Positions 1 through 39,195 of a DNA stretch of 64,000 nt are shown here, piece after piece. The position numbers and the translations under genes were made by a program. This stretch comes from Canna indica (lineage: Eukaryota > Streptophyta > Magnoliopsida > Zingiberales > Cannaceae), in assembly GCA_034359265.1 (NCBI GenBank), contig CP136893.1, positions 43,535,501-43,599,500 of the forward strand. Direction: 5' to 3'. The notes below the pieces were generated by a model, which searched no databases, had not been told where the DNA came from, and saw only the letters and a program-made list of their open reading frames with translations. Within the stretch, counting starts at the first letter, position 1; each line of letters begins with the position of its first letter.

Positions 1-975
1 GGTCGGGCATGAATTTTTTTGAGCTGGGCTGGGAAACGAATTTTTTCAGGCCGGGTCGGGCAGGAATTTTTTCGGGCCTGGCCGAGCACAAATTTTTTTT
101 GGCCGGGAACGAATTTTCTCATGCGGGGTCGGGCATAAATTTTTTGGGCCGAGCCGAGTCAAGATGGGCAGTGCACGAATTTTTTCGGGCAAGGTTGGGC
201 CCGATGCGAATATTTTGGACTGGGCATGAATTTCTTTTCGTGTTAGGTCGGGCTGGGCATAAAATTTTTCGGGTCGGGTCGGGACACGAATTTTTTTGGG
301 CAGGGCTGACCACGAATTTTTTCGGGCAGGGCCAGGCAAGAATTTTTTCAGTCCAGACCGGACACGAATTTTTTTGGGGCGGGCCGAGCACAAAATATTT
401 TGGGCTGGGTTGGGCACGAATTTTTTGGGGTTGGGCCGTGCACGAATAATTTTGGGCCGGGCAAGGCACGAATTTTTTCAGGTCGGCACGAGTCGGGCAG
501 TGCATAAATTTTTTCGGGCAGGGCTGGGTTGGGCACGATTTTTTTTGGGTCGGGCATGAAGTTTTTCGGGCCGGGCCGGGATACGAATTTTTTTTGGGCA
601 GGGCAGGGCCGGGTCGACAGTGAATTTTTTCGAGCCAGGCTGAGCACGAATTTTTTCGGGCCTGGCCGAGCACAAATTTTTTCGGGCTAGGCCAGGCACG
701 AAATTTTTGAGTCGGGCTGGGCACGGAATTTTTCAGGCCGGGTTGGGCACGAATTTTTTCGGACCGAGCCGGGCTGGGACGGGCCGTGCAGTGCACGAAT
801 TTTTTGGTCGGGTCGGACACAAATTTTTTCGGGGCGGGATGGACACGAATTTTTTCGGGCCGGGCCGAGCACAAATTTTTTCGGGCCAGGCTGGACACGA
901 ACTTTTTTGGGTCGGGTCGGGCATAAATTTTTTGGGTCGAGCCTGGGACAAATTTTTTCGGGCCAGGCTAAAAAC
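1..975. repeat. Degenerate GGGC / AATTTTTT tandem array
   Basis: About thirty irregular units of roughly 30-40 bp alternate a G/C phrase (variants of GGGCCGGGCTGGGC) with an A/T phrase (ACGAATTTTTTC). The array starts before the window and decays after the last unit near 960. Long open frames exist on both strands, but they only reflect the stop-poor unit and give low-complexity Gly/Arg/Phe or Pro/Lys peptides. GGGCCGGGC-type phrases are common inside non-autonomous plant hAT elements, so this may be the inside of one. No terminal repeat is visible to prove it. Confidence 0.75.
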
Positions 976-1002
976 TTAGGCCCGACACGATTTGTCTGAC
1001 AA

Positions 1003-1390
1003 ATTAATAATTTTTAATTTTTGTATATTATTGAAAATATATTAAAAAATCTATCAAATGACATCAGATGTAAAATCTGACACTACCATCAGGTTCAGCA
1101 CGCAAAAACCTACAACTTTGATATTTATCTCGTCTTCATCCGACGACTCTACGTCGCCAAAATTAATTATTTTTCAATACTTAAATTATTGCATTTGCAG
1201 CCCACAATCTTGTATTGCGGGCTTTTTGGACTGCAATTCCACTTGCGGGGCCCGCAAATGATATTTGAAATACAAGTTGCAACTAGTAAATGCTGCAAAA
1301 TGATTTTGCAGCCAACCAAACAAATTTGTTATCTAAATGCTGCAACTAGAGTTGCAGCATTTGTACGTGCGGGCAACCAAACGCCCCCTT
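1003..1390. mobile_element. PIF/Harbinger-like transposon end, copy 1
   Basis: The right edge reads CAACCAAACGCCCCC, the reverse of the GGGGGCGTTTGGTTG terminus usual for PIF/Harbinger and Tourist-like elements, and is followed by TTA, the usual 3-bp target duplication. The sequence beyond (cagtaaag...) is the interior of a gypsy LTR; the uninterrupted LTR copy at 6240-6255 has TTTAAACAGTAAAG at that point, so insertion at TTA explains the junction. The segment contains paired TGCAGCATTT / AAATGCTGCA stretches. The other terminus is not in the window. A diverged copy lies at 9276-9663. Confidence 0.6.
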
Positions 1391-1392
1391 AA

Positions 1393-2604
1393 GCAGTAAA
1401 GTTTTTAGCAAAAAGTTCAAGTTCGGAAATAAATGAATCAAGTCCAACAGTTCATTTTAACAAATAAAATCTGAAATGAAAGACATGAACATCCCCAAAG
1501 GACTACAATTCCAAATCACCAACACAAGTGCATGACAAACTATCAAAAACTCGACTACGACACCTAACTAGGACTGCTATGAGATGAATGTGGTTCCTCT
1601 TCCCTCCAACCGCACCAAATGCACCAGCCCACCTCACCGGTCAGTCTCTGCAAAAAAAAATGATAACAAGTGAGTTCAAAGAACTCAATGAGTGGTTCTA
1701 CCAACTCCCACGAGAAACCAAACACAGAGATATAACATATGAAAAAATACCAGTCTCAAATAGGAATAAAGTCACAAGGGTGTGACTAACTGTTAGACCA
1801 TCTGGCCATCACATGCTCGAAGGCATCTAACACTCTAGCGGTGAAGTATAACAAGCAAAAGCCTACCATGACCTAAGGCAACAAATCATACTCAAGGGTT
1901 ACTAGGATAATCAGGATTGGCCAATCCAAACTTATCCTATAACAAAGGAACTCGGGAGCAATTGGGATTTGCCCGTCTGAACTTGCTCTATGAGACATGA
2001 AGGGACAATCGGGATTCGCCCATCCGAACTTGTCCCTTTAAGATATCATATATAGGAATAATCAGAATTTGCCCGACCAAACTTATTCCTTAAATGAAAC
2101 TCGGGAACAATCGGGATTTGCCTGTCCGAACTTGTTCCATGAGAAAACACAAGAACAATCGGGATTTGTCCATCCAAACTTGTTCCAAAAGAGATAACGT
2201 AAGAATAATCAGGATTCGCCCATCCAAACTTATTCCTTTAAACACAGGTTGGGAATTAGCCATCCAACGAACTTAACCTTCCGGGCCAAGCCCGCAATCC
2301 GGCTCCTAACCGAACCTCTCCGTCATTCATAAAGATATAACGCAATATGACCTAAGTCAAGTGTCTCCTACAGTGTCTTGGGGATGTCATTATTGGGAAT
2401 GCTACAACACCCAATACCCGATCCCAACTCCTAGACCCGTAACATCATAAACCCATGAAGTTTTATTTCATAAATAAACTTTATTTGTTGGTTCATAACA
2501 GATTATGCAGCCCCTTTAATTTTAATTATGCAATTAAAATTATCATCACCAAAATTAGGATTTTGTTTTAGGATTTTATTTTCAGTTTACTGTTGAGCCT
2601 AGCA
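1393..2604 (-). mobile_element. Fragment of gypsy element 1 LTR (3' copy)
   Basis: This stretch aligns throughout with 6247-7437, the interior of the 5' LTR of the minus-strand gypsy element, in the same orientation. It should therefore be what is left of the 3' LTR. It lacks the LTR end (replaced by the Harbinger-like insertion at 1390) and is cut at about 2604, where a SIRE-type LTR begins. It retains the hairpin array at 1904-2237 and the TTTTTTTGCAG-like tract near 1640-1660, read on the minus strand. Confidence 0.75.
1904..2237. repeat. Seven-unit hairpin array with covarying stems (copy A)
   Basis: Seven 35-bp units share a conserved 21-nt loop resembling TCGGGATTTGCCCGTCCGAAC, flanked by complementary 6-8-nt stems. 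The stems differ between units yet stay paired: AGGATAA/TTATCCT (1904-1938), GGAGCAA/TTGCTCT (1955-1989), GGGACAA/TTGTCCC (2001-2037), GGAATAA/TTATTCC (2054-2090), GGAACAA/TTGTTCC (2104-2138), then a GAACAA and a GAATAA unit (to 2237). The array lies inside an LTR and is repeated at 6770-7098. Confidence 0.9.
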
Positions 2605-2605
2605 T

Positions 2606-3654
2606 AATCAAATCAAGCTTGAAGGCAAACTCAAGGAATGAGAGATCAAACTAGGATTTCTCTAAGTAATGGCTCAATGAAAGCTTGGAATTGATCAAGG
2701 ATGACTCAATGAAGTGTAGGAGTGATCAAAAGTGTCAAAGGAAGACTCTTATGGCTTCCTATTTATAATCCATGAAGAGAAGGCATGAAACAGGTGGCTC
2801 AACGGACGAAAAACTAGCTGTTTTCGTCGTCGGGTCGATGGCCGATCGACCGGAAGCAAACTGCCGCTTTCTGGCACACTTCAGTCAATCGACCGGTCGA
2901 CCGAATTGGCTACTGCCAATTTTTGGCACTATTCGATCGACCGACCGATCGACCGAAATTGGAAAAATCAGCTAGTTTGTTGATTTTTTTGCTCGTTTGC
3001 TCGTTTCTAGTTCCGTCTTCGCTAAGTCTACTTATATAACATTTATTAAGTTTAAAACATAAATGTTATATAAGGATTACCCCCCCCCCCCCTATTTGGA
3101 TATAATAAAAATATCTAAAAAATCAAAATCCTTAAGAATCAACATCTAGTTTTTGGGGTCTAGTACAAATTTCCAAAAAATGAAAATTTTCTAATCTCCC
3201 GGTTCAAATATGGGGTAGGCTAAAGGCTTCCAAAAACTCCTTAAAAGTACATCGTTATCTAGTTTCTACCCAAGGAATAACTACCGTCATTTTTTGTTTC
3301 AAGAAAATGTGTAGGTCATATAACCCTCCAATGAGCTCCTTAGGCTTAGTGAATTTCAGGACGGTTTCCGGGTTTTCATGTTTTGTGGTTCGGGTATGGT
3401 TTTTGGGTTCTTTGCATCATAAAGAGGATTACATTATATTCTACACACCCTAAACCTAAACTCTAACCTCCCAAAGAATCCCGATCGTCGACGAGCGTCC
3501 TTGCCGATTTCTCATATTTCTTCGATTTTTCCGATCGGGGATGACGTGCGCTAACCGACTTGGAACCTGAAAGATTTCTCAATAAAATATTAGTTCCATG
3601 TTTGTTATCATCAAAACCGAGATTAAGACAAAGGTAGAAAACCTTAGGCCAACA
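2606..3654 (-). mobile_element. SIRE-type copia LTR, 3'-truncated
   Basis: On the minus strand this begins TGTTGGCCTAAGG at 3654 and continues with the ...GATGATAACAAACATGG... signature of the LTRs at 18409-19848 and 46520-48186. It is about 1.05 kb, against 1.4-1.7 kb for those copies, because the R/U5 end is missing. It abuts gypsy RT at 3655 and gypsy LTR at 2604, so it replaces the 3' half of the gypsy element rather than simply interrupting it. Confidence 0.75.
2758..2965 (-). promoter_or_regulatory. LTR U3 cassette (TCGACCG palindromes) and TATA box
   Basis: On the minus strand a TATA-like GATTATAAATAGG lies at 2770-2758. Just upstream, 2833-2965 is packed with GATCGACCG, TCGACCGGTCGACCG and similar palindromic units. 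An array in the same place relative to a TATA box occurs in the other LTRs of this type. Promoter activity is inferred from position. Confidence 0.55.
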
Positions 3655-4414
3655 CATTAGTCAGCCCGTAGGACATTACCAGGAACTCAAAGTGCCCATA
3701 CCTCGATCTGAAAGCAGTCTTAGGGATGTCACTATACCAAATCCTCAACTGATGGTACCCTGACCGCAGGTCAATCTTGGAAAACCACTGAGCCACCTGA
3801 AGCTGATCAAATAAATCATCAATCCTGGGCAGCGGGTATTGATTCTTCACCGTTACTTTGTTAAGCTGCCGGTAATCAATGCACATCCGCATGGACCCAT
3901 CTTTCTTTTTCACAAAGAGCACTGGAGCACCCCAAGGCGAAACACTCGAGCGAATCAAGCCCAACTCAAGCAGCTCCTGCAACTGGGACTTCAACTCCCT
4001 CAACTTAGCTGGTGCCATCCGATACGGCGGAATGGAGATCGGCTTCACCCCAGGCTGCAAATCAATACAGAACTCGATCTCCCTTTCTGGGGGCAACCTT
4101 GGCAACTCCTCTAGAAACACATTAGAGAACCCGCATACCATCGGCGTTCCCGCAATGGCCCTCCCCTCAGCAACAGACACAAAGGCCAAGAAGGATTGGC
4201 AACCATCTAAAAGTAGCTTTCGAGCCTTGAGAGATGAAATGGCAACCAACGAATCCCCCCTTCCCTCACCCTGGAAGATAAACTGGGGCAATCTGGGCTT
4301 ACTAAAGGTCACAGTCTTAGCCCTGCAGTCTACTGAGGTGAAATGGTCTGCCAACCAGCCCAAAATTACATAAAGCTCTAGCATCGGCAGGAGTATCAAT
4401 TCGGCCATCAGCAC
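3655..4414 (-). pseudogene. Gypsy element 1 reverse transcriptase, truncated
   Basis: This is the N-terminal part of a Ty3/gypsy polyprotein RT, which would copy element RNA to DNA. It is readable from the protease-RT linker through [16 protein letters not shown], the [20 protein letters not shown] block and the SGYHQLRI block to [10 protein letters not shown]. The chain stops there because a SIRE-type LTR begins, so the catalytic YxDD box, RNase H, integrase and chromodomain are absent. One in-frame stop separates it from the protease at about 4420. The element cannot be active. Confidence 0.9.
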
Positions 4415-4420
4415 GTGCCC

Positions 4421-4702
4421 CTAAATGATCACCTCGCTGCCCCGAAAGGCTGTCTCTGCCAGCATAGAATCGCCTGTAGGCGTAGACACCACAAGAGGCA
4501 AATCAAGTATAGAGGATTTCCCTGACAACTTAGCAGCAAATAATGCAGACACAAAATAATGCGTAGCACCTGGATCAAATAATACATAAGCAATAGCAGA
4601 ACCATCAACAAGGTTACTTGACACCACTGCCATGGACGCCTCAGTGCCTTCTTGGTTCAAGCAAACACCCATGCAGCAGGCCTCTCTGAACCACCTACTC
4701 AT
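4421..4702 (-). pseudogene. Gypsy element 1 aspartic protease
   Basis: This is a retropepsin-like domain with AYVLFDPGATHYFVSALFA, the D-x-G-A active-site region usual for plant chromoviruses, followed by the TGDSMLAE segment. It sits between gag (upstream on the minus strand) and RT, the normal order in gypsy polyproteins. Its 3' end is a stop that separates it from the RT frame. The homologous domain of gypsy element 2 is at 27607-27867. Confidence 0.85.
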
Positions 4703-4739
4703 TGGCCTCCTCCCGAAGTCTGACCTCTCTAAGCCACAG

Positions 4740-5887
4740 AACCTACTGTCATCGGTGTCTTTCCTCTGGTTTGATCAAGCTGCTGACTGCCCTTACCAGG
4801 ACAATCCTTTCTATAGTGCCTAGTCTGCCCACAGCTGAAACATACCTCTGAACGTCCCCAGCAAGCTCCCTAGTCCTTCCTGTGACATCGGTTATACGGC
4901 TGCGGCCCAGGCCTCCGCTAGGAGCCTCCCGATGACACCCTTGGTCCTGAGCCCATGTGGCATCTGGAACTGTTATGACCTCCACCCTGCATTGGATCCG
5001 CTGTCTTGTGAGTACCCTTAGAGTGAGCTGGCCAACCCCCCGAGTGCTGGGGCCGAAACTTTTTCTTCTGTCATGCCTGTCTGTCGGTACCAATGCCTCC
5101 TTCCGGAGCGCCTCATCTACAAATTGAGCAAAAGAAGTGTCCTCAGTGTAATGGATAAGTCTGACGATCTGCGGCCTCAGCCCCTCGACAAACCTCTTGA
5201 CCCTGGCGGTCTCTATGGCTATCAAGGTGGGATGATACTTCGAGAGTCAAGTGAACTCCATCTCATAGTCCATCACTGACATACTGCCGGTCTGACGTAG
5301 TAGCTCGAATTCTTTCGCCCGTTTGTTTCGGATGCTCAGTGGCAGGTACTTTTCCATGATAGTAGCTCTGAACTCCTCTCTGGTAGGGGGTGGTGCATCT
5401 GTTGCTCTGCAATCCCTCCAAGTGTGAAGTCAATCCTTGGCTGGTCCACTCAGCTATAACATGATTAGTTGAGCGGTCGTCTCAAAAGAACAACCGAGCT
5501 CCCTGCACAACTCATAGCAATCTCCTAGGAAAATGGTGACCTCCGGCCACCTACTGATCTATCCCTGTATACTCCGGTTGCCTGAATGCGACAAAATCTG
5601 CATATGAAGGTGCTCTAGGAACTCTGACCATCGGTGCCACTGGCTAGGCCACCTCCGGTACTGCTGGTACTGTCGGTGCCGGTTGTGGCTGCTGCCTCAG
5701 CTCTTGCTCCCTGCAGAGTGCCTCAAACAGCTCAGCCACTCAGGCCTGCAACGACACAACCATTGGGTCCTGTGCCACCTCCTCCCGGGCCTACGGCGGT
5801 CTCCCACTACCCTGGCCCTTGGTCTCTGCCTCGGCGCTCTGTGGAGTTGCTGCCACTACCGCTCCATGCAGCATTAAAGGCCTCCAT
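4740..5887 (-). pseudogene. Gypsy element 1 gag
   Basis: A degenerate capsid gene. The likely start, Met-Glu-Ala-Phe-Asn-Ala-Ala at 5887, matches Met-Glu-Thr-His-Asn-Ala-Ala of gypsy element 2. A readable C-terminal part (5225-4749) has RVKRFVEGLRPQI and YTEDTSFAQFVDEALRKEA, typical of the retrotransposon gag domain. Several stops and frameshifts break it, and the zinc knuckle is not readable in one frame. Confidence 0.75.
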
Positions 5888-6080
5888 CAATCTGGAATCA
5901 CCAGAAAAATATCATAATTAGACAATTTAATTCACCCCAATATTTTTGCAAACTTAACCACAAGTTGCGCTGAGGTGCAGACTTAGCATATTGATCTCAT
6001 TACATAACCCTACCGTATATCGACACGCTAGCAATGCCCCATACGGTAACAACTCTAGGTCATAGTCAGACCGAACCACA

Positions 6081-6093
6081 TGCTCTGATACCA
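6081..6093 (-). other. Primer binding site for initiator tRNA-Met (element 1)
   Basis: On the minus strand, TGGTATCAGAGCA begins 3 nt inside the LTR end. This is complementary to the 3' end of plant initiator tRNA-Met, the usual minus-strand primer of chromoviruses, and confirms the element orientation. Confidence 0.9.
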
Positions 6094-6096
6094 TAT

Positions 6097-8899
6097 TGTC
6101 ACCCCCCAACTTAGGATCACGTGACCGGCCAGGGTATACGTGCCTATACTCCGCAGCCTAACTCATGCACAAGCCAACTCATAAAAGATAGCGGAAGAAA
6201 TAAATAATTTTTATTATAAAAGAGAAACCAAAACAGATTTCATTTAAACAGTAAAGTTTTTAGCAAAAAGTTCGTACGAAAATAAATGAATCAAGTCCAA
6301 CAGTTCATTTTAACAAATAAAATCTGATATGAAAGACATGAATGTCCCCAATGGACTACAATTCCAAATCACCAACACAGGTGCATGACAAATTATTAAA
6401 AACTCGACTACGACCCCTAACTAGGAATGCTTTGAAATCAATGTGGCTCCTCTGCCCTCCAGCCACGCCAAGTGCTCCAGCCCACCTCACCGATCAGGCT
6501 CTGCAAAAAAAAAAACGACAACGGATGAGTTCAAATAACTCAGTGAGCGGTTCTACCACCCCCCCCCCCCCCCCCACGAGAAACCAAACACAGAGATATA
6601 ACATATGATAAAACACCTATCTCAAATAGGAACAAAGTCACAAGGGTGTGACTAACTATTAGGCCATCTGGCCACCACATACCCGAAGGCATCCAACACT
6701 CTAGCGGTGAAGTATAACAAGCCAAAGCCTACCATGCCCTATGACAACAAATCATACTCAAGGGTTACTAGGATAATCGGGATTGGCCCATCCGAATTTA
6801 TCCTATAATAAAGGAACTCGGGAGCAATCGGGATTTGTCCGTCCGAACTTGCTCCACGAAATGCGAAGGAACAATCGGGATTTGCACGTCCGAACTTGTC
6901 CCTTTAAGATATCACAGGAATAATCAAGATTTGCCCGTCTGAACTTATTCCTTAAAAGAAACTTGGGAACAATCGAGATTTGCCTGTCCGAACTTGTTCC
7001 ACGAGAAAACACAGGAACAATCGGGATTTGCCCATCCGAACTTGTTCCAAAAGAGATAACGTAGGAATAATCGGGATTCGCCCATCCGAACTTATTCCTC
7101 TAAACACAGGTTGGGAATTAGCCCACAATCCGGTTCCTAACCGAGCATGTCCGCCATTCATAAAGATATGGCGCAATATGATCAAAGTCAAGTGTCTCCT
7201 ACGGTGTCTTGGGGATGTACATCTTTATTGGGAACGCTACAACTCCAAATACCCGATCCCAACTCCTAGACCCGTAACATCATAAATTCATGAGGTTTTA
7301 TTTCATACATAAATTTTATTTATTGGTTCATAACAGATTATGCAGCCCCTTTAATTTTAATTATGCAATTAAAATTATCATCACCGAAATTAGGGTTTTG
7401 TTTTAGGATTTTATTTTCAGTTTACTGTTGAGCCCAACACTAGTGCACCCAAATCGAATCTGACTTCTAAAGTGTGACTTATAGATCCAGACTATATTTT
7501 CTGGTCGAAATGACAGGTTAGACGACTATGTTCAGTAAACTATACACATCACAACAGAGATTACAAAATCAGCCCTGAGTTACAATTTCAGCATGAATTT
7601 CCAGCAAGATTGAATTTTCAGCATGTTATGGAAATAATTCCGAAATTCACAGAATATAAATCCTAAATTTCCATCACCACGGATTCATAACATCAAGTCC
7701 ATTGTACAAAACAAATTCATAGTTTGTTAATCAAGATCTAGCAAGCATCTACATCATCATAAGATCAAGACTTCAAGTTTTAAATCAAGAATCCACATCA
7801 AAAACACCCATGGCATCAAGAGAAATCTTTCCACATGCAACATAGATTTATAAACTGAAATTACATATCTAAACACATCTCATACATTGGCATCAAAGGA
7901 ATTTAAATTAAAGAGGTCAATCCAAACCTAGTTTGTAAAGAACATATTAAAGATTTCTTTTAAGCATTTCATCGAACACCTTGAGGGCATCCTTATCTCC
8001 ACCTTGGCCGAGCACCCCTAGGATCAACGAAGGACTGTCGAGCCCCAAAGGGGGGGAGGGGGGTTCGGGCCTCCTATTCCATGGCAATAAGAAAAAGCGG
8101 CAAGAACTCTAGATTCGACGGAAAACCAACAAAAACATCTTGATTTCAAGAACGGCTCAAGAATATGAAAGAAACTTGAGAAAAGGAGGGGTAAAACCAC
8201 TCACCCGATTAGGAAGAAATAAATAGAGAAGGACTTCGAAGCGGCGACCTCCGAATCCGGCCCCAAAGGGTGGCGGCGGCTCGGCTCCTCAAGGGAAGGG
8301 GTGGTGGCTCGAAGGCTCAACGGGGGGAGGGGGGGGGGGGGGGGTTGCTTCAACCAAGCCGGTGGCTTGGCTCAAAGGAGAGGGGAAAGAGGGAGGGATG
8401 GCTCGGTGGCTGGCTTCTTGGAAGTGGCGGCTTCAAGAGAAGGGAAAGGGGAGAGGGGCGGCTCGGCTTGGGTGGCTCCTCTCTCCTACTCGGCTGGGGT
8501 GGCTCCAACAGGGAGTCGCCTAGCCCTAAGGGGGGATTTTATAATCCCCTCCTATTTCCTCCTATCCACACCCTAAATCCGCACTCTCATCAACCTAGAT
8601 CTGTAACCCGCTAACCCAACTAATCCCAGTAGCTCAACATAACCCTATACTAAATACAATCATCAATCACATGCACACCCATGCATTATAATTTAATAAA
8701 TCAAGCACACATAACAGAATAATTAAATAAATTTAATCTACGTAGGGCTGGGAATTGCATAATTCAAACTCCTACTTACCTGAGCTCGCAAGCTCCCACC
8801 GGATCATGAGTCGACTCGGCTCGACCTCGAACTAGCCCGCTAGGGGCTGACAATCACAAATAATAACCCAAATTAAATATTAATATCTAGGATATTACA
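6097..8899 (-). mobile_element. 5' LTR of gypsy element 1 (Tekay-like chromovirus)
   Basis: On the minus strand this begins TGTAATATCCTAGATATT at 8899 and ends GGGGGGTGACA at 6097, next to the tRNA-Met primer site. Its ends match the LTR at 36577-44935. It holds the hairpin array (6770-7098) and a poly-T/GCAG tract near 6480-6510 that resembles a 3' splice site shared with the LTR of element 2. Homopolymer runs (C at about 6558-6576, G at about 8325-8343) lie within it. The outside flank is CCAAC; the partner target duplication is not recoverable. Confidence 0.85.
6770..7098. repeat. Seven-unit hairpin array with covarying stems (copy B)
   Basis: This is the second copy of the LTR array, in the same order and better preserved: AGGATAA/TTATCCT (6770-6804), GGAGCAA/TTGCTCC (6821-6855), a GGAACAA/TTGTCCC unit with one mismatch (6868-6902), AGGAATAA/TTATTCCT (about 6916-6952), GGAACAA/TTGTTCC (6966-7000), GGAACAA/TTGTTCC (7013-7048) and AGGAATAA/TTATTCCT (7063-7098). 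The loops keep the CGGGATTTGCCCG core, itself able to pair CGGG with CCCG. Confidence 0.9.
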
Positions 8900-9275
8900 C
8901 CAACACGATAAAATCATGATCGGGGCACACATTATTGTGTTGGGCCAGGGGATGTAGGTCCGACCCAACCTTATAGCCTAAGATCGGCCCGAGCCCGATG
9001 CGGCGATCCTGTGCCGGACTGGCCATCCCTTTGGGAATCTGGGTCGTGACAGACACGTCCTAATTGGCATTGGGCCTGACCGGGCTCGGGACAGGGCTGA
9101 CTCGAGCACGACCTATTGGAGGCACGAAGATGTTAGTCAAATAGAGGTAAAAGGATAAATATGTCATTTACCCCCCCCCCCCTCTACAATAATTGATCGA
9201 TTACAAGAGAATCAATTCGATCCATAATAATTTTATTTTATACTCTAAATCACTATTTAGTTTAGTAAAATATAT
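8900..9275. other. Intervening sequence rich in GGCCCGAGCCCGA phrases
   Basis: No gene is seen. The first part (about 8930-9125) has GGGCC/GGCCC-type phrases like those at 1-975 and could belong to the same non-autonomous family. It is followed by an A/T-rich stretch with a short poly-C run (about 9172-9182). Confidence 0.4.
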
Positions 9276-9663
9276 TTTATACTAATAATTTTAATTATTG
9301 TATAATACTGAAAATATATTTAAAAAATATATTAAACGATATCAAATCTAAAATCTGATACTACCATTGCGTTCAGCGCGCGAAAATCTATAACTTTGAT
9401 ATTTATCCGGTCTCCATCTGACGACTCTAAGTCACCAAAATTAATTATTTTCCTATACTTAAATTATTACATTTGTAGCCCGCAATCTTGCATTGCGGAT
9501 TTTTTTGCTGCAATTTCATTTGCAGCCTTCAAATGATATTATAAATACAAGTTGCAACTAGTAAATGCTGCAAAATACTTTTGCAGCCAACCAATCAAAT
9601 TTGTTATCTAAATATTGCAACTACAGTTGCAACATTTGCACTTACGGACAATCAAACGCTCCA
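9276..9663. mobile_element. PIF/Harbinger-like transposon end, copy 2
   Basis: This is collinear with 1003-1390, including the AAATCTGATACTACCAT, TTTGATATTTATC and TGCAACTAGTAAATGCTGCAAAA stretches. It ends CAATCAAACGCTCCATAA, a decayed form of the CAACCAAACGCCCCCTTA end of copy 1. The opposite terminus is not identified. Confidence 0.6.
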
Positions 9664-9933
9664 TAAATTATCCGCATATAAAACTAATCATGTATTTATA
9701 TTAGGTAACGTGTATTAATTAGCCATATATGAAATTTATAAAATTTTTATTTTTACATTCAGTCATTACAAGAACGGGAAACAATAAGATTAAGATAATA
9801 GAACTAAGGAAGCCGTAAATGAAACAAAGATTTCATATTTAAAGTAGGTAACGTGCATTGATCAGCTATAACGAAGATTTAAGAGAGTAGCTGCATGTTA
9901 ATGAGATTATCTCCAATTTTAAAAAGCTAATTG
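9664..9933. other. A/T-rich spacer, nothing recognised
   Basis: No coding region or repeat is recognised. Its last bases, AAAGCTAATTG at 9923-9933, recur at 16172-16182 and are the candidate left target duplication of LINE A. Confidence 0.5.
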
Positions 9934-9941
9934 CAAATCAA

Positions 9942-11664
9942 ATGGCAGGCAAACCTTCAAATTTGGGCGATAACATTGGCGATGGCGTAGGCGACGATGT
10001 TGGCTTGGGCTTGAGTTCGGGAATGGAGGGCTCCACCCGGATTGTTCCTAAGCCGAAGAAGCCTCCAAATCCATCTCCTAGAGGAAGGGATCTCAGATCG
10101 TCAATCTGGAGAAAAAAGCTCGCTACTGACGAAAAGATTGATTCGGGATCTCAAAATCTCCCCTATGAGCAAAATCTTTGAATAAACTCAAACACCAAAA
10201 GTATGAACCCCTCATCAGTCGCTGCTAGTTCTGGGTTTTCAAAGGATTTCTTTGCTATAGAGAATCCTTTATTTGATAAAAATCTTAAGGAGAATCCTAC
10301 ATCTGTTGTTGCTCAAAAAGAGCATGATAAGAAAATGCAATCTCCCCCCACCTGGGCTGCTCTCTTTCACGAAGCCAACATGCATGATGATATGCCTCAG
10401 AGAAGTATTCTAGATGAAAAACCAAAAAAGATTCAGGAATCATCTGAGAACACTGTCACCATTGATGACAAGCTGATTTCGGCTGCAAGGGCAGAATGGA
10501 ACACAAGTTTATATGGGAAATTCTATGGTTCTACTCCACCATTACAGCTCATTCAACAAGTGATGCCAAAGATCTGGAAACTCAAAGGAAATGTTGAGAT
10601 AATTGACCTTGCAGTAGGTTTTTTCTGCTTCAAATTTTCATGCTCTGAAGACTTAAACAAGGTACTAACTGAGGGACCTTGGTTCTACAGAGGTAAGGCT
10701 CTGTTGCTAATTCCCTGGAGACCAAGTTTTCAGCCAATGCGAGAGAAGATTGAAGCAATTCCAATATGGATTCAGCTGCCTGGTGTTCCTCTGGAATACC
10801 TACATAAAGATATATTGATTAGCATTGCAAGAAGCATTGGCCAATCAATTAAAATCGATGGAATCACTTTAAAAGGACAAAGAGCAAAATTTGCTAGAAT
10901 ATGCCTTCTTTGGAACCTTAGTAACAAAGTACCAGCTGGTATATTGATAAATGGGGGTGGTTCTTCTTTTTGGCAGGCCATAGCATTCGAAAATGTGCCA
11001 AGGTTGTGTTTCCATTGTGGTAAAATTGGTCATCTCGAAGACAATTGTATCAATAAAAAAGTTGAAATGCCAGCTGAGGCAAATTGTGAAACAGATTGTG
11101 GCAATCAAGGTGGAAACCAGGGAACATATGCCTTACCAAAAAAAAATAGACTGCAAAGATACTAGTGATGGTATTTTTGGACCATGGCAAATTATAAATA
11201 GGAAGAAGAAAGTAAATGGTACAAAACTTGATTCACAAGAAAACAGAAGCAGGAATAAATTTGAAGTCTTGTCCAAGACTCCAATTCTGGACCAAGTTTC
11301 TAAAATGGAAGAAGACAAAAACATTTCCATGGAAGCTTCAAAAGAAAGCAACTCTCCTCCTCTCTTCAAAAAGTCTGACATTAACGGAGAATGCATAGCA
11401 AATAATATTGAAAAGAATATTATTTTTACTGCGGAAAAATATGAGCATTTAGCAATACAGATTGATGTTGAAAAGGACTTGGAAAAATTTCACAAAAAGC
11501 TAACATATACTCTTGAGGTTGCAGTTAGCAAAATTACAGTAAGCAGTCAAACAAACATAGAAGATACAGATGAAGATTTGATAAGCAGCCCTCTTCTCAA
11601 TTCTAGAAGAATCAAGGAAATCTATATGTCCCACCTGGGTTGCTACAGAATTAAGCGCCTCTAG
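9942..11664 (+). pseudogene. LINE A ORF1: DUF4283 and CCHC zinc-knuckle protein
   Basis: The nucleic-acid-binding ORF1 product of a plant L1-type LINE. The start MAGKPSNLGD at 9942 is followed by an in-frame TGA at 10179, then the same frame runs on from 10182. A DUF4283-like region shows GPWFYRGKALLLIPWRPSF, then IPIWIQLPGVPLEY, and a CCHC knuckle CFHCGKIGHLEDNC at about 11007-11048. A slip in the A-run near 11140-11149 shifts the frame. The C-terminal part then continues in the other frame with SDGIFGPWQIINRKKK to a stop at 11664. ORF2 starts just downstream. Confidence 0.88.
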
Positions 11665-11679
11665 TATTTTTTTAATGGA

Positions 11680-14600
11680 GATTTTATCTTTGGAATATTA
11701 GAGGTGGGCTTAAGGCTGCTGGTTGGGACTATTTGGAGTTAATGGTAAAACACACAAGCCAACAATGGTTCTACTAGTTGAAACTCACTTGGAAGATGAA
11801 GACTCAATTACTTGCATCAAGAAATTTGGCCCTAACTGGGAGGGTCTTCATGTAGTAGGTAATGGAAGATCTGAAGGCTTCATCTTAGTTTGGAAACATG
11901 AAACAATCAAAGCTCACATCCTTTATAGTTGCCCTCAAGCTTTGCATGTTTCTGTTTGTATTAATGGAAAGGAATCTTGGCTGATAACAGGGCTGTATGC
12001 AAGTACCAGTGCTAAAGAGAGAGAACTGCTTTGGAATTTCCTCAAAAATCTTAGTATTGACAACATTCCGTGGGTTTTATTGGGAGACTTTAATTGCATT
12101 GAAAAGCAAAAAGATAAGAAAGGTGGCAGATTATTCAAAATGGGGAATTCAACAATGGCCTTTGATGCTCTTTGCCTTGATGCTGAGTTGATTGATCTGG
12201 GTTTTAATGGTTGTAGGTATACATGGTGTAACAATAGATCAGGTGATAAAAGAGTCTCTGTCAGCCTTGACAGAATATATGCTAATGGTAATTGGATTTC
12301 CAAATATAGCAGTGCAAGGGGCCATCATTTACAGATGCTAGCTTCTGATCACAGACCTGTTATGCTAGACATAAACATGAGCAATATATTCACTAGAATC
12401 AAGAGGAATTTTGTCTTCGAGCTATACTGGTTAGAAGATGAAAACATCAATGAGTTCATAGAAAATAATTGGGTCAATTCCAACACGAATAATGGTAGCT
12501 TGGATTCATTTGAAACATCTTTGATGTCCTTGGGGGAAAAGCTTAGTACATGGAGCAGATACCAATTTGGCTCACAGGAGAAAAACCTAAAGGATACTAT
12601 GGCTGAGTTTGGCAGACTTGAAGCTGCCGATGAAATTAGTGTTGCTTCAGAAGAGGACATGGTTAAGATAAAAAGCCTTTCAAACAAAGCCATGGCCCTC
12701 AATCGACAACTCCATATCAAATGGTGGTCTAAAGCAAAAACAAATTGGATTGAGATGAATGATAAGAACACGAAATACTTTCACAACCTGGTGAAGTATA
12801 AAAGGAGGAAAAATTTAATCACTGAACTAACAGTAGATGGGAAAAAGCTTACTGAAATCATGGAAATTTCTGAAGAAATTGTAAAATGGTACAAAGACTT
12901 ATGGAGTGAAGACATTACTTGTTTCCATAACTAGAAGGAAATTAAACAAATGAATTGGAGGAAGATTCCTCACAATGCACATAAAGATCTGATCAAAGAC
13001 TTTACTGAACATGAATTTGTTTCTGCAACGAATGGACTAGGTAGAGGCAAAGCACCAGGTCCAAATGGTTTCAGTTTGGAGTTCTTTTTGAAATTCTAGG
13101 AGATCATAAGGATAAATTATATGGATGCAGTCAAGTCTTTGCACAAAGATGCACAAAGTTTTTGATGAATCCTGGGGTAGTACCAATCTAGTGTTTATTC
13201 CAAAGAATGACCAACCAAAGACTGTAAAATAATTTAGGCCCATTGCATTATGCAATGTTGCCTATAAGATACTTTTGAAAGTATTAGTCAACAGAATTAA
13301 GACTTGGGTTGGGTCAATTATATCCAAAGAGCAATCTGCATTTGTGAAAAAAAGAGACTTGCAGGACAATATCATTCTTCTCTCTGAGAAAGTAAGCATC
13401 ATGAGAAGATCTAAAAGAAAACATCCCTATTTTCTCATTAAACTTGACCTCGAAAAAGTTTTTAATAGGGTCAGTTGGGAGGCTCTTGAGGGTATCTGCA
13501 GATGTATTAATCTTCCAAGTAAGTTTACCGGATAGATCATGGGATGTCTTAGAGCTGCTAATTTTAAATATTGTATAAATGGCCAGCAGTCAAGGTCTTT
13601 TAAGAGTTTCAAGGGAGTAAGGCAATAGGATCCTATCTCCCCTTACTTATTCATTATTGTTTAGGAACTCCTTACTGTGCTTATTAATAGGGAAGTAGAG
13701 AACAAACACATAAAGGCATTCAAATACAAAAATATCACTGTTAGTCATTTATTTTTTGCAGATGATATTATTATTACTGTCAAATGCAATAGAAAGTCAT
13801 GTGATCACATCAAATCGGTGCTTAATCAGTATGGAAATATCACGAACCAAAGGATTAATTTTGGCAAATCAGAAATTATTTTTCCTGGTGATTATCCAAA
13901 ACAAAAAAAGAGGAGACCTATAACCTATTGGGTATCAAAGAAGGAACTCTTCCTCTTCAGTACCTGGGTGCTCAGATCAACAAAGGTAAATGTTTCATTG
14001 ATAGCCAAATGTAGATTATACATAAAGCTGAAAGTAGACTTAATAGTTGGACTAGCAGGAATATCTCCCAAGCAGGTAAAACAGTTCTGCTTAACTCAAT
14101 TATTAATTCAATTTCCATTCATACTCTTTCTTCTACTTGGATAAATGATAAGGTAGTGAAAGAGTATGAACAAGTTGCAAGGAACTATATGTGGAAATCA
14201 AACTCAAAGAAGAAAGGCCTACATCTAATAAACTGGAAAAAAGTTACCTTGTGCAAAGCAAAGGGAGGCTTGAGATTTAAAAGTGGTGAAATATTCTATT
14301 CATGTCAAAAGAATTTTACCACTTTTAAACAAAAAAGATCTCAGCTGGGTAAACATTTTGGTTCAAAGGTATAACAACATCCACCCTTAGGCTGAAGGTC
14401 ATAAGGATTGAAGGCTGTCAACTATGGTCAAGCTCAGAAATGGTCTGAAAATTAACATTGGCAATGGTACAAACACTGATTTTTGGAAAGATCCTTGGAT
14501 AGATTGCATTCCCTTAAACAAATGGCCAACTTTTATTAATATAAGAAACAAAAAGACTTTGAAAAAGTAAGTGACATGATTTCTAATGGTGAATGGAATC

Positions 14601-18408: not shown

Positions 18409-19848
18409 TGTAAGTGAAATGGCCTACAAAAGAGGGGGATGAATAGTGTGTTCGCTAAACTTTAGCCTAAATTCAATTTTAACCAATTCTTAATTACTTA
18501 GGCAAATTATCAATTCAAGTCTAAATGCGGAAGCAAGTGATTTAGGAGAAATTAGTGATTTAGCAACATAATAATCAAAGTAAGGACAAGCTAATCACAC
18601 TCAACCAAAGGAATGCTAACAAGATAGATTTATAGTGGTTCGGCCCCAATACCTACTCCACTACCTAAGCACTCCCATTTAGGATTTCTAACTCTAGTTT
18701 ACTAGATTAAAGTGTTTCGTTACAACGAGTTTCACTGGAAAGTCTCCGCTCTCACACCGAAGGCACTTCCACACTCGGAAGTCTCCGCCTTCCTACCGAG
18801 AGCACTCTCTCACCTCAAACCTAAGGGCAACACAACTAATCCTAGTGAACTAAGTTCACAAATATGGATTTACGGCTCAACACCAAAGAAACCACCAAAC
18901 CCAAGATCTACAACTAGATCTTTACACACTTGATATACAATCAAATAAACACTAAAAACACGAGTAAATGAGAGTAATAATAAATAATACAAACTTAACT
19001 CTCAACCAAGAAGTCTTAGCTCCTCTTGATGCCTTAATGATGAAATAATTGAAGGTTGAAGGCAAGATCAAAGGTTTTTGTCTCCAAGCTAGGGTTTGCA
19101 CAAAGAATGGCTCAATCAATCTCAATGGTGATTAAAATAAGTCTCAAGAAGTGTTGGATCCTTTGGAAGGCAAGTTTGGGGTCTTATATAGAGATCCCAA
19201 AGGTAGAAGCACGGTTTCTTGAAATCTCAACGAGTATAAATTCAAAATAGAGCCGTTGGGGGCATTCTGGGAATTCTAGAAAGTTTGACTAGTTGATTCT
19301 GTGAATACTTATAGAGTACCGATACTTTCCAGGCTATTCCGAAATGTCAATCTGGGTTGTTCCGGGTTGTCTATCCGGGTTATTCCGGATTGTCCATCCA
19401 GGTTGCTCCGAGTTGTCCATCCAGGTAGTTCTGGGTTGTCCATCCGGGTTGTTACAACATCCCATTCAGAATGTTGTTTAGTACTTGGAAACTCTTGGTA
19501 ATGTTGTAGAGTACTCGTACATTTCGGTTGAAGTCTGGTCGACCAAAACATCAAGGTTCTTTCTTTTGGTTCGAGTTTCAAGTTTGTTTCTTTAGGGATC
19601 TTTGCATCATAATGAGGATTAATACAATCATTCTAGACACCCTAAACCAATAAACTCTATTCTTCCCGACGAATTCGAGCACGTTGACCAACGTCTTTCC
19701 TGTTCACCCATTTTTTAATATTTCTGATTGAGGACATCGCACACAAACCGATATGAAACTTGAAAATTTTTCTCCATAAAAATATTAGTTCCATGTTTGT
19801 TATCATCAAAATGAGATTAAGACCAAGGTTGAAAACCTTAGGCCAACA
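18409..19848 (-). mobile_element. SIRE-type solo LTR
   Basis: On the minus strand it runs from TGTTGGCCTAAGG (19848) to CATTTCACTTACA (18409). The flanks ATTTG (18404-18408) and ATTCT (19849-19853) are diverged forms of one 5-bp target duplication. The right arm of the nearby inverted repeat still holds the uninterrupted site (GAGTTCGCTCGTGCC, minus sense). A cassette of GGGTTGTCCATCC-like units (19350-19460) lies upstream of a TATATAAGAC box (19191-19182). No internal region is left, so recombination between two LTRs is the likely origin. Confidence 0.85.
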
Positions 19849-20875: not shown

Positions 20876-21836
20876 GAACTCTTTTCCCGCCATGATGCCT
20901 CTCCATAAACGAGGAGGCAAACACCAATCAACAACTGCCATGGGAAGAATAGAGTTTAGTTTTAGGGTGTCTAGAATGATTGTATTAATCCTCATTATGA
21001 TGCAAAGATCCCTAAAGAACCAAACCCAAAACCCGAACCAGAAGAAAGAACCTTGTTGTTTCGGTCGACCAAATTTCAATCGGATTATACCAGTACTCTA
21101 CAGTATTACCAAGAGTTTTCAAATCATAAACAATATTCCAGATGGGATGTTGTAACAACTTGGAACAACCCGAACAACCCGGATAGACAACCCGGAAAAA
21201 CTCGAATGAACAACTTGGATGGACAACCCGGAACAACCTGGAGAGACAACCCGGAACAACCTGGATTGACATTTCAGAATAGCTTGGAAAGTACCGGTAC
21301 ACTGTAGTATTTCCAGCAAAATTCCCAAAATACCCCCAATGGATCTTTTTTGAATTTTTACTCGTTGAGCTTGTTGGAAACCAAGCACCTAACTTTGAGA
21401 TCTCTATATAAGACCCCAAACTTGTCTTCCAAGCCATCTAACACTTCTTGAGACATATTTTGATCACCATTGAGCTTGATTGAGCCATCTTTTGTGCAAA
21501 CCCTAGCTTGGAGACAAAAACCATTGATCTTGTCTTCAACCTTCAATTGTTTCATCATCAAGGCATCAAGAGGAGCTAGGACTTCTTGGTTGAGAGCTAT
21601 GTTTGTATTGTGTTTGTAAAAAGGTGTGGGTGATCACACACCTTGGGTTCACTTATTTGTAACTTTAGAGTTCATTAGGTTTGAGGTAGAGACACTCTCT
21701 AGTTTGAGAGATAAGGCCTGGGTAGATCCTCATTAGAAGCAAAGGAAAGTTAATACAAGTGGTTGTAAAATCCTTGCTGGTGAGCCAAGGTAGTAGAGTA
21801 GGCGTTAGGGCCAAACCACTATAAATCAACTTGTTA

Positions 21837-23926: not shown

Positions 23927-26180
23927 TGTAATACCCGAGATTTCCTAATATAAAATTTTATTTGGTTCAATGAGCGGGATCGGGGACTAGTCGTGTCGAG
24001 TAACAAAATTGCCGCGAGTAGAAGGTATAATTTAAATTGTTGAACTCGTGATTAATGCTTTTGTGATTCTTTAAGTTGAATTGACTCAAGTCGGGTTGGA
24101 ACTGGGTTCGCGGGTCGAGTCACGGCTCAATTCGGGCTCAGGTTGAGTTGGATAAGAGAACTTAAGTTATGAGGGCATTGTTGTCAAAAAAAAAAGAAAA
24201 TGAAACCCTCTTCCCCGGCCGCTGTACGGCTCAAGGAGAGCCGCACGTAGCTTGGGGTGAGGGAGAGGAGGGAGAGGGCAAGAGGGCGGCGCCGGAGTTG
24301 GTGTCATCGCCGGCGATCGAGAACGTCTTCGTCTCATCTTTCTCTTCCTTATAATCAAGGTGAGTGGTCGAAACTCGACTAGTAGAGTGTGGCGTGTGGC
24401 CGAACCATGTAGATGGGGTAAATCGAGATTTCATGTGTCATTTATTGTCAATAGATGATGTTTCTCGGATTCTTTAATCATGTTTTTCATTGATGTATGG
24501 ATCCTTGTGTTCAACATTCGTTTTGTGATTATTTTGGTGCCAATCGATTGAAGAAAAAAGGGGAAAGACCATGCCAAAATTTCCCCGATCCTTGAATGCT
24601 TAAATCCTTGTAGACTATCCCCAATCATGTTCGCAAGTCTTAGAGAAATTGATAGAAACATTGGCTATTGACATGTGTAGATTGTTCTTGTGTTGAGATG
24701 TATTAGAGGGTACTCTATATGTTTTCATGTTGCTAGAATTTATTTCTATAATGTTGGAATTAAAAAATTATTTGTTGTAGATAATTATTTAATTGCTGAA
24801 ATCATTGTTTATAAACTATTATGAATTATTATTGTTGTGATAAGTTATTTAAATTGCTATGATAAATATGCACATGCTGAAATAGATCAATTGTTGCCAT
24901 ATATTTCATGTATGAGTTATAGATAAACACTATAGGTTACGATTAGTGACTCCAGTACAAATAAGTGAACGACATCGTACACTTGAATGACAGGAGGGTG
25001 ACATATGTTGGACCTCACACTTTTCTATCCAATTTAGAAGTAGTGAAAGTAGAAACATTAGAGATGCTAAATCATATTCTCATGTTGAGAATGGATAAGT
25101 GTAGTAGAGATTGGCATACTACAATCCTCATTAGGACAAGAACAAGAAAAATGAGAAAAACAAATTGGTGCAGCCGGGTAGGGTTGGGTGTGGGCGTAAG
25201 CCCGAGGTAGTACTTAATTACTATGGAATACTTATTTGTATGTGTATTGTGCTTGAGATGGTTGGGCTGAGGAGTGCTTTTAGCTAGAGCGACTATTACC
25301 CGACTTAGCGGGGGGTTTTAGGGTCTTGAGATTACACCAGTGGGCCACCCTAGGTGTTAGACCCGAGTGGCGAGGGTCTTGTGATTCCGTGAGTAGGCCA
25401 CGCTGACGGTAGACCCGGATGTTGGGTGGGACTAGCTATTCCTAACTCGGTGAGGGCTCTAGAAACTAGCTGACCATCCTAGTTGACGGACTCAGTGATT
25501 GAATCGCTAAATGCAAGATTTTATGGAAATTATAATCTGCTGTGGCTAGATGCTTACTTGTATGATTGTGTAGGCCGGTATGGCCGAGTGCTGTAATGAG
25601 GTGAAGGCCGGGCATGGCCAAACCATCCATGTAGGGTAAGACCCATAGTGGTCGAGTGACACTTGTTGTATAGAGTCGAAGTTGGCTGGTTTATTTACTC
25701 ACAGAGATCGGCCAGCTAGCCGTTTATCTTGACATGACCAATATAAATTTTATGCATATGTTTTATTGTTATATATGATATTATACTGGGGATTTAAGCG
25801 GAGGTTCGGAAGAACCACTCACTGAGTTCCTCGTAGATTTATGGTTTTATTTTGTCTTTGTTTTGCAGAGCCTGACCAGTGAGGTACGACTTGATGGCGT
25901 GGAGCAGCTGGAGGGCAAGTGGCATCGTAGATCTCGTAGCAGGCAGATATTTAGTCGTAGTCATGCAGAGAGAGTCTTAGTTCATGCACTCAGTTGTTTC
26001 TTTGAATATTGAGTTGTAAAACAAGTTTTCAAACATTTAATAAATTTTGGCATACTTCATTTATGGTTTTTTTTATGTCGGTCTGGTTGCTTGTTATATT
26101 TTGTATGAGTGCATGTAGTAGGCTTCGGGGTACAGACATCTACCCTGGCCGGTCATGCGATCCTGAGTCAGGGCGTGACA
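23927..26180 (+). mobile_element. 5' LTR of gypsy element 2
   Basis: It begins TGTAATACCCGAGATTTCC and ends CAGGGCGTGACA, followed by AAG and the tRNA-Met primer site. It belongs to a different subfamily from element 1, but shares the GAACCACTCACTGAGTT ... TTTTGCAGAGCCTGACC block (25812-25880) with LTR 1, which suggests a conserved splice-acceptor-like element. The flank on the left is CCAAC. No matching 3' LTR is present. Confidence 0.85.
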
Positions 26181-35689: not shown

Positions 35690-36527
35690 GTGCAGTCCAC
35701 ATTGGTGGACATGTTACGGGCAGTGCAGGAGGAGGATGCTTTATGTTCTCTCACTATGGATCTGGCTAGGAGAGGCGATGCCGATAATGGATTCAGTATG
35801 GACTCGCAGGGCATTCTGAGGTTTAAGAACTAGATATGGCCGAGGTTCGCAGGCTGGTACTAGAGATGGCTCATCGATCTACATACACTATGCATCCGGA
35901 GCCACAAAGATGTACCGAGACCTAAGGCAGAATTATTGGTGGAAAGATATGAAAAGAGAAGTGACTGAGTTTGTATCTAAGTGTCTGGTGTGTCAGCAGG
36001 TGAAGGCTGAGCATTTGAAGCCGACAGGGTTGCTCCAGAACCTTGAGGTACCAAAGTGGAAATGGAAGAGGATAACCATGGATTTCGTGACGGGGTTGCC
36101 AAAGTCTAGGAAGGGCAACCATTCTATTTGGGTAGTGGTGAGATTTGGTAAGAAAGAAAAGCTAAGCCCTAGGTTCATTGGGCCATTTCGTATTCTCAGG
36201 CGAAGGGGAGCTGTGGCCTATGAGTTGGCCTTGCCTCCTAGTATGGACCAAGTGCATCAAGTGTTCCATGTATCTATACTGAAGAAGTAAATTCGGGATG
36301 AGTCTCATGTGATTGAGCCTACCGCAATTGAGGTGGATTCAACAGTCTCTTATGAGGAGCGGCCAATTGAGGTGTTAGACCGTCAGATCAAAAAATTGAG
36401 GTCCAAGGAGATCCCCTTGGTTAAGGTCAGGTGGGAGTACCATTCCGAGCAGGAGGCCACCTGGGAGGTGGAGCAGGATATGAGAGAGTGTTATCCTTCA
36501 TTGTTTGATGATTTGGTGAGTCCTTAA
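35690..36527 (+). pseudogene. Gypsy element 3 integrase with core deletion, and chromodomain
   Basis: The zinc-binding and first core part is readable: MYRDLRQNYWWKDMKREV, CLVCQQVKAEHLKPTGLL and ITMDFVTGLPKSRKGNHS. After IWVVV the frame jumps to RFGKKEKLSPRFIGPFRI, so most of the catalytic core, with its second Asp and Glu, is deleted without breaking the frame. After the stop at about 36288 a chromodomain follows (ERPIEVLDRQIKKLRSKE, KVRWEYHSEQEATWEVEQ, to 36527). This marks the element as a chromovirus, whose chromodomain normally directs insertion to heterochromatin. Confidence 0.9.
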
Positions 36528-36576: not shown

Positions 36577-37084
36577 TGTAATATCCTAGATATTTTAGTT
36601 ATATTTTTCCTCTTATGGTTTGTGTTTGCCAGCTTAGCGGACTAGTCCGAGGTCGAACCGAGTCGACTCATGTTCCGGAGCGAGCTTGCGAGCTCGGGTA
36701 AGTAAGAATATGAGTTATGTAAAATTTTCTTATGTAGATTAATTTATTAAATTTTTTGTTGTGTATGCATGATTGTTTAATTATGTTGTATATGGGTGTG
36801 CTTGTGTTGGATGTTTATGTGAAGCATGGGAGTAATTTGGGTTTAATTAAGCTTAGTGGGTTAGCGGGTCGAGAAGTTAGTGGGTATGGATCTGGGTTGA
36901 GGCGGATGCGGGTTAAAAATTATGGGAAGGGGTATAAAATCTCCCCATAGGGCTTGCAGCCCCCTATTGGAGCCGTACAAGGCATTGAGGGAAAGAGAGG
37001 AGCCGCCAGCCCCCCCCCTTCCTCTCTCTTGCAAGCCGCCGAGCCTTTCCCTTCACCTTCTTCCTCTTCTTCCACTACAAAAAA

Positions 37085-37460
37085 ACAGGGTATCACCAAC
37101 GGACTAAATCTGTTGGTAATAGTCATAAATCCGTTGGTAATACTATTACCAACGGACTTCTGTTGGTAAAATCCGTTGGTGATACCCTGCTAGGTATTAC
37201 CGACGGATATTACAACATCCGTTGGTAATACCAACGAATAAAAACATCCGTTGGTAATATCAACGGATATTTTTCTGTTGGTATTACCAACGGATTTGTG
37301 TTTGTTGGTATTACCAACAGATTTGTGTTTGTTGGTATTACTCTGTTGGTAATATCAACGAATAGATCCGTTGGTAACATCCATAGTTATTACCAACAGA
37401 TATACTTTCACTAGTGATATCAATTTATACACTTTGGTATACCAACAGTTATCCATTGGT
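37085..37460. repeat. CACTA 1 left subterminal repeats (CCAACGGA)
   Basis: More than fifteen copies of ATCCGTTGGT / ACCAACGGAT in both orientations, often as ATCCGTTGGTAATACCAACGGAT-like dyads. They are matched by four at the right end (43540-43610). Such arrays bind the TNPA-type protein in known CACTA elements; binding here is inferred. Confidence 0.85.
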
Positions 37461-39135: not shown

Positions 39136-39136
39136 A

Positions 39137-39190
<54 letters not shown>
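39136..39190. repeat. (TA)n microsatellite
   Basis: About 27 TA dinucleotides with one TG interruption near the start. Confidence 0.95.

Positions 39191-39195
<5 letters not shown>

Follow-up and report, generated by a model that had tools for sequence, protein, structure and literature searches.

A tandem array of hairpins with co-changing stems in the long terminal repeats of Canna indica chromoviruses

The psi and dimer initiation stem-loops of retroviruses lie in the leader of the unspliced genomic RNA, where hairpins are few, unlike one another and mostly downstream of the primer-binding site (PBS). For plant elements with long terminal repeats (LTRs), little is known, to our knowledge, about how genomic RNA is selected for particles. 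Retand, a set of plant gypsy elements reportedly drawn from a search requiring tandem repeats, is said to be listed outside the chromoviruses and to have a long internal region. Here we describe a tandem hairpin array in the LTR of a chromovirus from a 64,000-nucleotide stretch of Canna indica DNA (contig CP136893.1, positions 43,535,501 to 43,599,500; hereafter the window, numbered from its first letter). The host genome comprises 753 Mb in 9 contigs, and the sequence is plant DNA. Unlike the hairpins of the retroviral leader, the array consists of several similar units and lies inside the LTR, upstream of the PBS.

Satellite tobacco necrosis virus carries several short packaging stem-loops near the 5' end of its RNA, with a common loop motif, variable stems and a proposed role in binding coat protein. 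According to the available text of a report that examines whether they matter in vivo (PMC6475782), these stem-loops are not tandem, have an AxxA loop and belong to a virus; protein binding by the chromovirus array would be hypothetical. Tandem repeats within an LTR are also described, in the accessible part of PMC3601003, for the U3 of retroviruses and tobacco Tnt1; those repeats are transcription-related, whereas the array lies downstream of a TATA-like box and its arms covary. RNA hairpins maintained by template switching offer an explanation for matched stem changes, yet as far as the excerpted text of PMC8794818 goes they represent a mutation mechanism and not an element. Rfam covariance models gave no match at the arrays (window positions 1-12000, E up to 1; two weak matches fell elsewhere), exact-pattern scans of viral contigs and genome contigs found nothing, a reverse-transcriptase (RT) scan of viral contigs confirmed no relative, and a protein search with the array's open frame returned no match. 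Judged by title, no such LTR hairpin arrays were described among the literature matches listed, with subscription journals mostly uncovered.

We identified two copies of the array in the window, a right copy in a complete LTR and a left copy in an LTR fragment (Table 1). Both hold seven tandem units in the same order, as a first-pass annotation of the sequence had proposed, and each unit has arms of 7-8 bases flanking 21 bases; a core motif search at up to three mismatches gave 11 matches against 0.00 expected. The near-constant 21-nucleotide loop reported in that annotation holds for the window units and is not fixed across related families, which also have 19-base loops. Across the 14 window units, 92.0% of stem cells are paired, against 82.9% after shuffling and 37.5-50.0% with slid partners, and 15 cells are changed on both sides, against 5.6 in shuffles. 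The co-varying stem positions noted at first pass are real, with changes on both sides at five of the eight stem pairs and at 0-1 in slid controls. Six of the seven seven-base-pair stems in the right copy are fully Watson-Crick, as are four of the seven in the left copy, where the remaining three carry one G.T or A.C each. Unit 3 reads GGGACAA/TTGTCCC in the left copy (at 2001) and GGAACAA/TTGTCCC in the right. Between the copies, stems differ at 4/112 sites, all on one side only, and loops (20/147) and linkers (10/72) diverge alike. By eye, a degenerate eighth unit can be made out at 2240-2300 and 7104-7130, upstream of unit 7 on the transcribed strand and partly absent from the right copy.

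Genome-wide, querying with the array yielded 3288 first-look candidates; 40 were scored, and all of these, the window's own included, were fetched. Thirty-seven of these loci were aligned unit by unit over the first seven units, with L029, L045 and L048 left out as unalignable. On the transcribed strand, the commonest stems of units 1 to 7 are AGGATAA/TTATCCT, GGAGCAA/TTGCTCC, GGGACAA/TTGTTCC, GGAATAA/TTATTCC, GGAACAA/TTGTTCC (twice) and GGAATAA/TTATTCC. Because these array-selected loci are mostly 8-13% (up to 20%) from their nearest neighbours and show little grouping, we take the commonest stems as the state of the source lineage. In that state 48 of 49 arm pairs are Watson-Crick and one is G.U, with six of the seven units fully Watson-Crick; 12 of 5040 whole-arm permutations match this pairing, as do 3 of 200,000 simulations that placed nine independent changes on an assumed tree. 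The G.U pair in unit 3 is present on the transcribed strand in 37/37 copies, so that GGGACAA/TTGTCCC, one of five complementary stems listed at first pass, is private to the left window copy. Later stem changes are mostly private decay (38 G.U against 30 A.C cells, p 0.40). Stems co-change between units and between families, and decay after insertion is one-sided. The array-selected loci are mostly more identical in the array than in the rest of the LTR, a comparison that was not used because the loci had been chosen by array; in L008 and L049 the array is surpassed in similarity by a 300-base stretch.

Within one array, loops resemble each other between units (mean identity 0.79 in the left copy and 0.84 in the right), and linkers have identities of 0.52 and 0.51, against 0.45 for shuffled letters. 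Among the 37 copies, with linkers counted only at their commonest length (36, 37, 37, 28, 37 and 24 of 37), departures from the commonest base at A/T sites amount to 27/2183 in stems (1.2%), 52/2072 in loops (2.5%) and 120/1506 in linkers (8.0%). The corresponding figures are 5.1%, 9.8% and 8.8% at G/C sites outside CpG, and 2.8%, 7.6% and 8.4% over all sites, so stems stand out in every site class and loops at A/T sites only. Variation reaches 20-36% at some linker sites and up to 41% at some loop sites, and no stem site exceeds 19%. Three other tandem arrays in the window served as controls, with no double-changed cell in the 13 units at 63192-63544, none in the 8 units at 59264-59481 and 1 of 65 cells in the 5 units at 59949-60190, which argues that tandem hairpins here do not routinely gain compensations. 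The first two of these arrays consist of tandem GTGGAC...GTCC units of ~25 bases, which we take to be possible subterminal repeats of DNA transposons; the third has five tandem ~51-base units with 13-base inverted arms around CAACGGC...GCCGTTG.

Related LTRs were also selected with an LTR-end query outside the array (window 44600-44933), which gave 4139 first-look candidates, 40 scored and 12 fetched; 11 of the 12 LTRs carry diverged arrays. In a 200 kb sample beside the window, all three related LTRs that span the slot carry the array, two of them probably being one element's pair; the short LTR-end matches L071 and L072 are not among the three. The related arrays have ~4-9 clear units (finder counts run from ~4 to 10, degenerate ones included), stems absent from the window (GGGATAA/TTATCCC, GGGGTAA/TTATCCC and GGGGCAA/TTGTTCC), and two main loop forms, GTTCGGAYGGGCAAATCCCGA and GTTCGGAGGGCCTTCCCGA. 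Across 16 sequence stretches (the 12 end-selected and four from the 200 kb sample) holding 103 units, 463 of 515 outer stem cells are paired, a count that covers five outer pairs, none used to locate units. Shuffled pairing was 408 +- 4.8 over all units (maximum 425 in 2000 shuffles) and 411 +- 5.2 within loci (maximum 435), and slid partners pair in 34-73% of cells against 89.9% for the true partners. All five outer pairs are Watson-Crick in 45/103 units and Watson-Crick or G.U in 68/103. Of the 103 units, at least four are chance finds or misplaced, and these were kept (one in L075, two in L062 and one in L084), four others having been dropped beforehand.

A remote LTR family, here called family C, has two tandem hairpins of different sequence, in 53-base units, in a similar slot of the LTR (2544 first-look candidates; 39 other copies scored and eight of these fetched). 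The TGGGCCACG-like loops sit inside two stems, an outer GGGTCT/AGACCC and a middle one; the middle stems differ yet match, as ACACYAG/CTAGGTGT and CCGTCAG/CTGACGG. In the second of these, single pairs run across copies through C-G, U-A and U.G, or through A-U, G-C and G.U. Double-change pairs number 5, against 1.9 +- 1.1 in shuffles (9/500 reach this) and 0-2 in slid controls, the latter favouring the structure because it was drawn from the same rows. RNAalifold keeps both middle stems and pairs the outer arms otherwise. What links family C to the other families is a similar position and the GGGC apical motif only, and any common descent would be conjectural. Mostly unpaired stems, or covariation no better than expected for inverted-repeat decay, had been named at first pass as what would speak against the structure; most members seen in the genome sample are paired, and in three LTR families there are more paired changes than in either shuffled or slid controls, less markedly so in family C. 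The original observation is partly confirmed, real and larger than first described, and its interpretation is partly supported, the packaging, dimerisation, export and cruciform roles that it put forward being candidates.

Read along the transcribed strand, the LTR presents a TATA-like box, a donor-like site, four AATAAA motifs, the array (7099-6769), an acceptor-like GCAG, a fifth AATAAA at 6215, the LTR end and the PBS. If these motifs work, the array would lie in the leader of the unspliced RNA and be removed by splicing; whether it would fall beyond the poly(A) site depends on the AATAAA used. The donor GT is lost in L002 and the acceptor reads GCGG in the L067 and L068 LTRs. Site counts run over distinct places, L003/L052, L004/L051 and L008/L049a each being the same place. 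The donor-like and acceptor-like sites enclose ~1.7 kb with the array, and an intron located upstream of the PBS within an LTR would be an unusual arrangement. At the level of units the sense strand is slightly favoured: mean folding energy per unit is -10.1 kcal/mol in sense against -9.0 in antisense, the units not being independent, and the G.U of unit 3 occurs on this strand in all 37 copies. The middle stems of family C show 14 G.U against 3 A.C cells on the sense strand, and the pooled count without fixed pairs is 86 against 57 (p 0.019, cells not independent). Two single units from the window fold better than shuffles (z -2.17 and -2.52); among the single-unit folds, the L073 stretch was misplaced and went unused.

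Our best overall explanation, held tentatively and at a little less than even confidence, is a selected array of RNA stem-loops in the leader, perhaps marking unspliced RNA for Gag. The array would be a row of stem-loops in the RNA of the element, retained by selection for as long as the lineage remained active, each unit having a 7-8 bp stem free to drift provided that it stays paired, an inner part reading GUUCGGA...UCCCGA and an apical loop that contains GGGC. Maintenance of stem pairing is very likely, and the array more likely than not acts as RNA, presumably of the sense strand. Because the stems drift in step while the loop is kept, we propose a hairpin that is read by a protein. Several copies of one protein-binding hairpin might form a multivalent mark on unspliced genomic RNA; Gag, which would be the obvious reader in the leader of an LTR element, could recognize the mark, and the genomic RNA would be packaged. 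A packaging role of this kind is the likeliest single role in our view, held at low confidence, and roles in splicing, export or translation would fit equally. Held at slightly lower confidence is the fuller proposal that the intron-like portion of the LTR carries a tandem multivalent code of stem-loops that marks unspliced RNA for Gag, with families having rewritten the hairpin sequence and kept a repeated GGGC-loop hairpin in the slot.

Several observations weigh against this explanation. In the 14 window units the number of double-change pairs is weaker evidence when taken alone, since 36/500 shuffles attain it, and pair types are less varied than in shuffles. Loops in the 37 copies are no better kept than linkers at non-CpG G/C sites (184/1887 against 44/499) or over all sites (412/5439 against 197/2349). 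Among related LTRs, L075 has no array, and the LTR at 36577-44936 lacks the 980-base segment that carries the array in relatives. Some unpaired cells are common to two loci (class c in L074 and L082, class d in L079 and L083). In family C, 94.0% of 234 cells pair, against 92.8% in shuffles, of which 15/500 reach 94.0%, and the whole slot shows no excess of inverted repeats with arms of at least 6 bases (4 against 2.9, p 0.315). The TATA, splice and AATAAA assignments are motif-based, and the fifth AATAAA lies downstream of the array. Few events lie behind the sense preference, which without the fixed c and d pairs stands at 32 G.U against 21 A.C (p 0.17), and for units 2 and 5 as well as classes b and f the opposite strand is the more stable. 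Whole-array RNA folding is modest (z -2.16 in sense and -2.26 in antisense; -1.37 for the left copy in sense), arms of different units pair across in these folds, and for two single units from related families folding shows no advantage over shuffles (z 0.35 and 0.14).

Template switching at the hairpin is the main rival; it would copy one arm onto the other and yield matched stems without selection. In the available text of PMC8794818 it is described for RNA genes, where it can fix a stem and leave the loop as it was. It suits unit 1, read most simply as AGGAATAA/TTATTCCT after simultaneous loss of one base pair from the two arms, and a unit in L081, ATGATAA/TTATCAT, that is a double transversion without a G.U intermediate; the near-equal variability of loops and linkers in the 37 copies, with all sites counted, is also in its favor. 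It leaves unexplained why loops are alike between units and linkers are not, and the G.U states of units c and 3, which are long-lived, suggest stepwise change. The control arrays, with 0, 0 and 1 double-changed cells, and the one-sidedness of all four stem changes between the window copies also count against it, and no inverted loops were seen by eye in the printed units, no formal search having been made. We regard template switching as unlikely to be the explanation, although both processes may act, with switching supplying matched changes and selection retaining them. Just as unlikely in our estimation is an RNA structure with another role, in the splicing, polyadenylation, export or translation of a long leader. 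The array does sit between donor-like and acceptor-like sites kept in 9/10 and 10/12 related LTRs where they align, downstream of AATAAA motifs, but the sites are altered in L002, L067 and L068, and sequence by itself cannot tell such a role from packaging.

A DNA-level element, in which dyad-symmetric binding sites or cruciforms act as an enhancer, insulator or chromatin mark, seems less likely again. LTR DNA contains the array irrespective of what is transcribed, whole-array folding has no sense-strand preference, and the U3 repeats of retroviruses and Tnt1 are linked to transcription, at least in the accessible part of PMC3601003. A protein reading sequence, however, would conserve the sequence of the arms and not a changing complementarity; the array is downstream, not upstream, of the TATA-like box, and unit c would carry two mismatches on the other strand. 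Concerted evolution, in which unequal crossing-over swaps whole units and mimics compensation, is highly improbable, even though the unit number ranges from ~4 to 10 per array, with some units degenerate, and a period-three order (units 1/4/7, 2/5 and 3/6) is visible by eye. Crossovers within the 21-base loop would give mismatched arms, which are rare as family states, distinct matched stems would still need an origin, and the double changes in family C fall between orthologous copies of one unit.

The element carrying the right copy has TGTAAT...GTGACA ends, an adjoining PBS, and protease and RT in gypsy-type order, as expected of Ty3/gypsy. We take the PBS, TGGTATCAGAGC, to be of the initiator tRNA-Met type; this and the long LTR would fit a tentative placement in the Tekay clade. 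The complete LTR has a full-length match (1-2803) in L049 and shares its start at 8899 with the window LTR beginning at 36577; an alternative start at TGTCACGACCC (9051) was ruled out in favor of 8899 by the window's other LTRs. The gag frame has no Pfam match, and pol is truncated at 3657, the start of a different repeat; the element at 3657-8899 has lost the part of pol that would hold a chromodomain. In the relative whose LTR starts at 36577, integrase motifs are followed by a chromodomain (Chromo PF00385, E 8.9e-07, 29.2 bits, cut-off 25.1), and on this ground we assign the group to the chromoviruses, in agreement with the first-pass label; no chromodomain was found in the L067 piece tested. 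The available text of PMC6317226 reports a chromodomain for 94% of chromoviruses and for none of the other groups studied. A single LTR of this relative spans 36577-44936, into which a DNA transposon with CCGTTGGTAAT repeats has apparently inserted at ~37086-43635. The window fragment at 1389-2604 and the complete LTR differ at 109/1179 aligned sites and are mutual nearest relatives among 41 array-plus-flank sequences (0.096 against 0.101); because this margin is small, the two are likely, and not proven, to be the LTR pair of one element.

Other repeats border these features. Another LTR family, with the end GGCCAACA and presumably copia SIRE-like, has pieces at 2605-3656, 19591-19848, 20950-21030 and 47429-48187, one of which joins the cut pol end at 3656/3657. 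Tandem repeats of 23 bases occur at 19328-19453 and 21172-21271, and positions 1-980 are a minisatellite of 26-base units around GGGCCGGGCACGAATTTTTT. A repeat resembling a miniature inverted-repeat transposable element is present in two copies, 85% identical, at 1005-1388 and 9283-9662, one of which adjoins the left LTR fragment.

Table 1. Positions of the array, its units and associated features in the window.
Feature	Position	Strand	Remark
Complete LTR, TGTAATATCC ... GGGTGACA, 2803 bp	6097..8899	-	5' LTR of minus-strand element
LTR fragment, left copy	1389..2604	-	other repeats border both sides
Seven-unit hairpin array, right copy	6769..7099	-	unit 7 first on transcribed strand
Unit 1, AGGATAA/TTATCCT, 8 bp counting outer pair	6769..6805	-	
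Unit 2, GGAGCAA/TTGCTCC	6820..6856	-	
Unit 3, GGGACAA/TTGTTCC on transcribed strand, one G.U	6867..6903	-	
Unit 4, GGAATAA/TTATTCC	6916..6952	-	
Unit 5, GGAACAA/TTGTTCC	6965..7001	-	
Unit 6, GGAACAA/TTGTTCC	7013..7049	-	
Unit 7, GGAATAA/TTATTCC	7063..7099	-	
Seven-unit hairpin array, left copy	1903..2237	-	unit order same as right copy
TATA-box-like ATTATAAAATCC	8534..8545	-	TATAAAA kept in 5/6 related LTRs where aligned
Splice-donor-like GGGTGAGTGG	8197..8206	-	GT kept in 9/10 distinct related LTRs where aligned
Four AATAAA motifs (7415, 7324, 7302, 7229)	7224..7415	-	upstream of array on transcribed strand
Splice-acceptor-like T-run and GCAG	6501..6515	-	AG kept in 10/12 distinct related LTRs where aligned
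PBS TGGTATCAGAGC	6082..6093	-	read directly, 3 bases past LTR end
gag remnant (by position), protease and RT start	3657..5915 (upper bound approximate)	-	RVP_2 and RVT_1 matches
Chromodomain-encoding frame	36291..36527	+	related element with LTR start 36577
Two tandem hairpins of different sequence, family C	25321..25416	+	in LTR ~23929-26180

Arms that change together across several related element families suggest that the RNA of these elements folds at the array for some purpose. Thousands of first-look candidates for this repeated hairpin in a single genome should supply a large covariation set, together with a defined RNA for probing. Because LTR pairs and many dead copies provide an internal neutral control, the array could also be used to distinguish selection from template switching as the source of compensatory changes.

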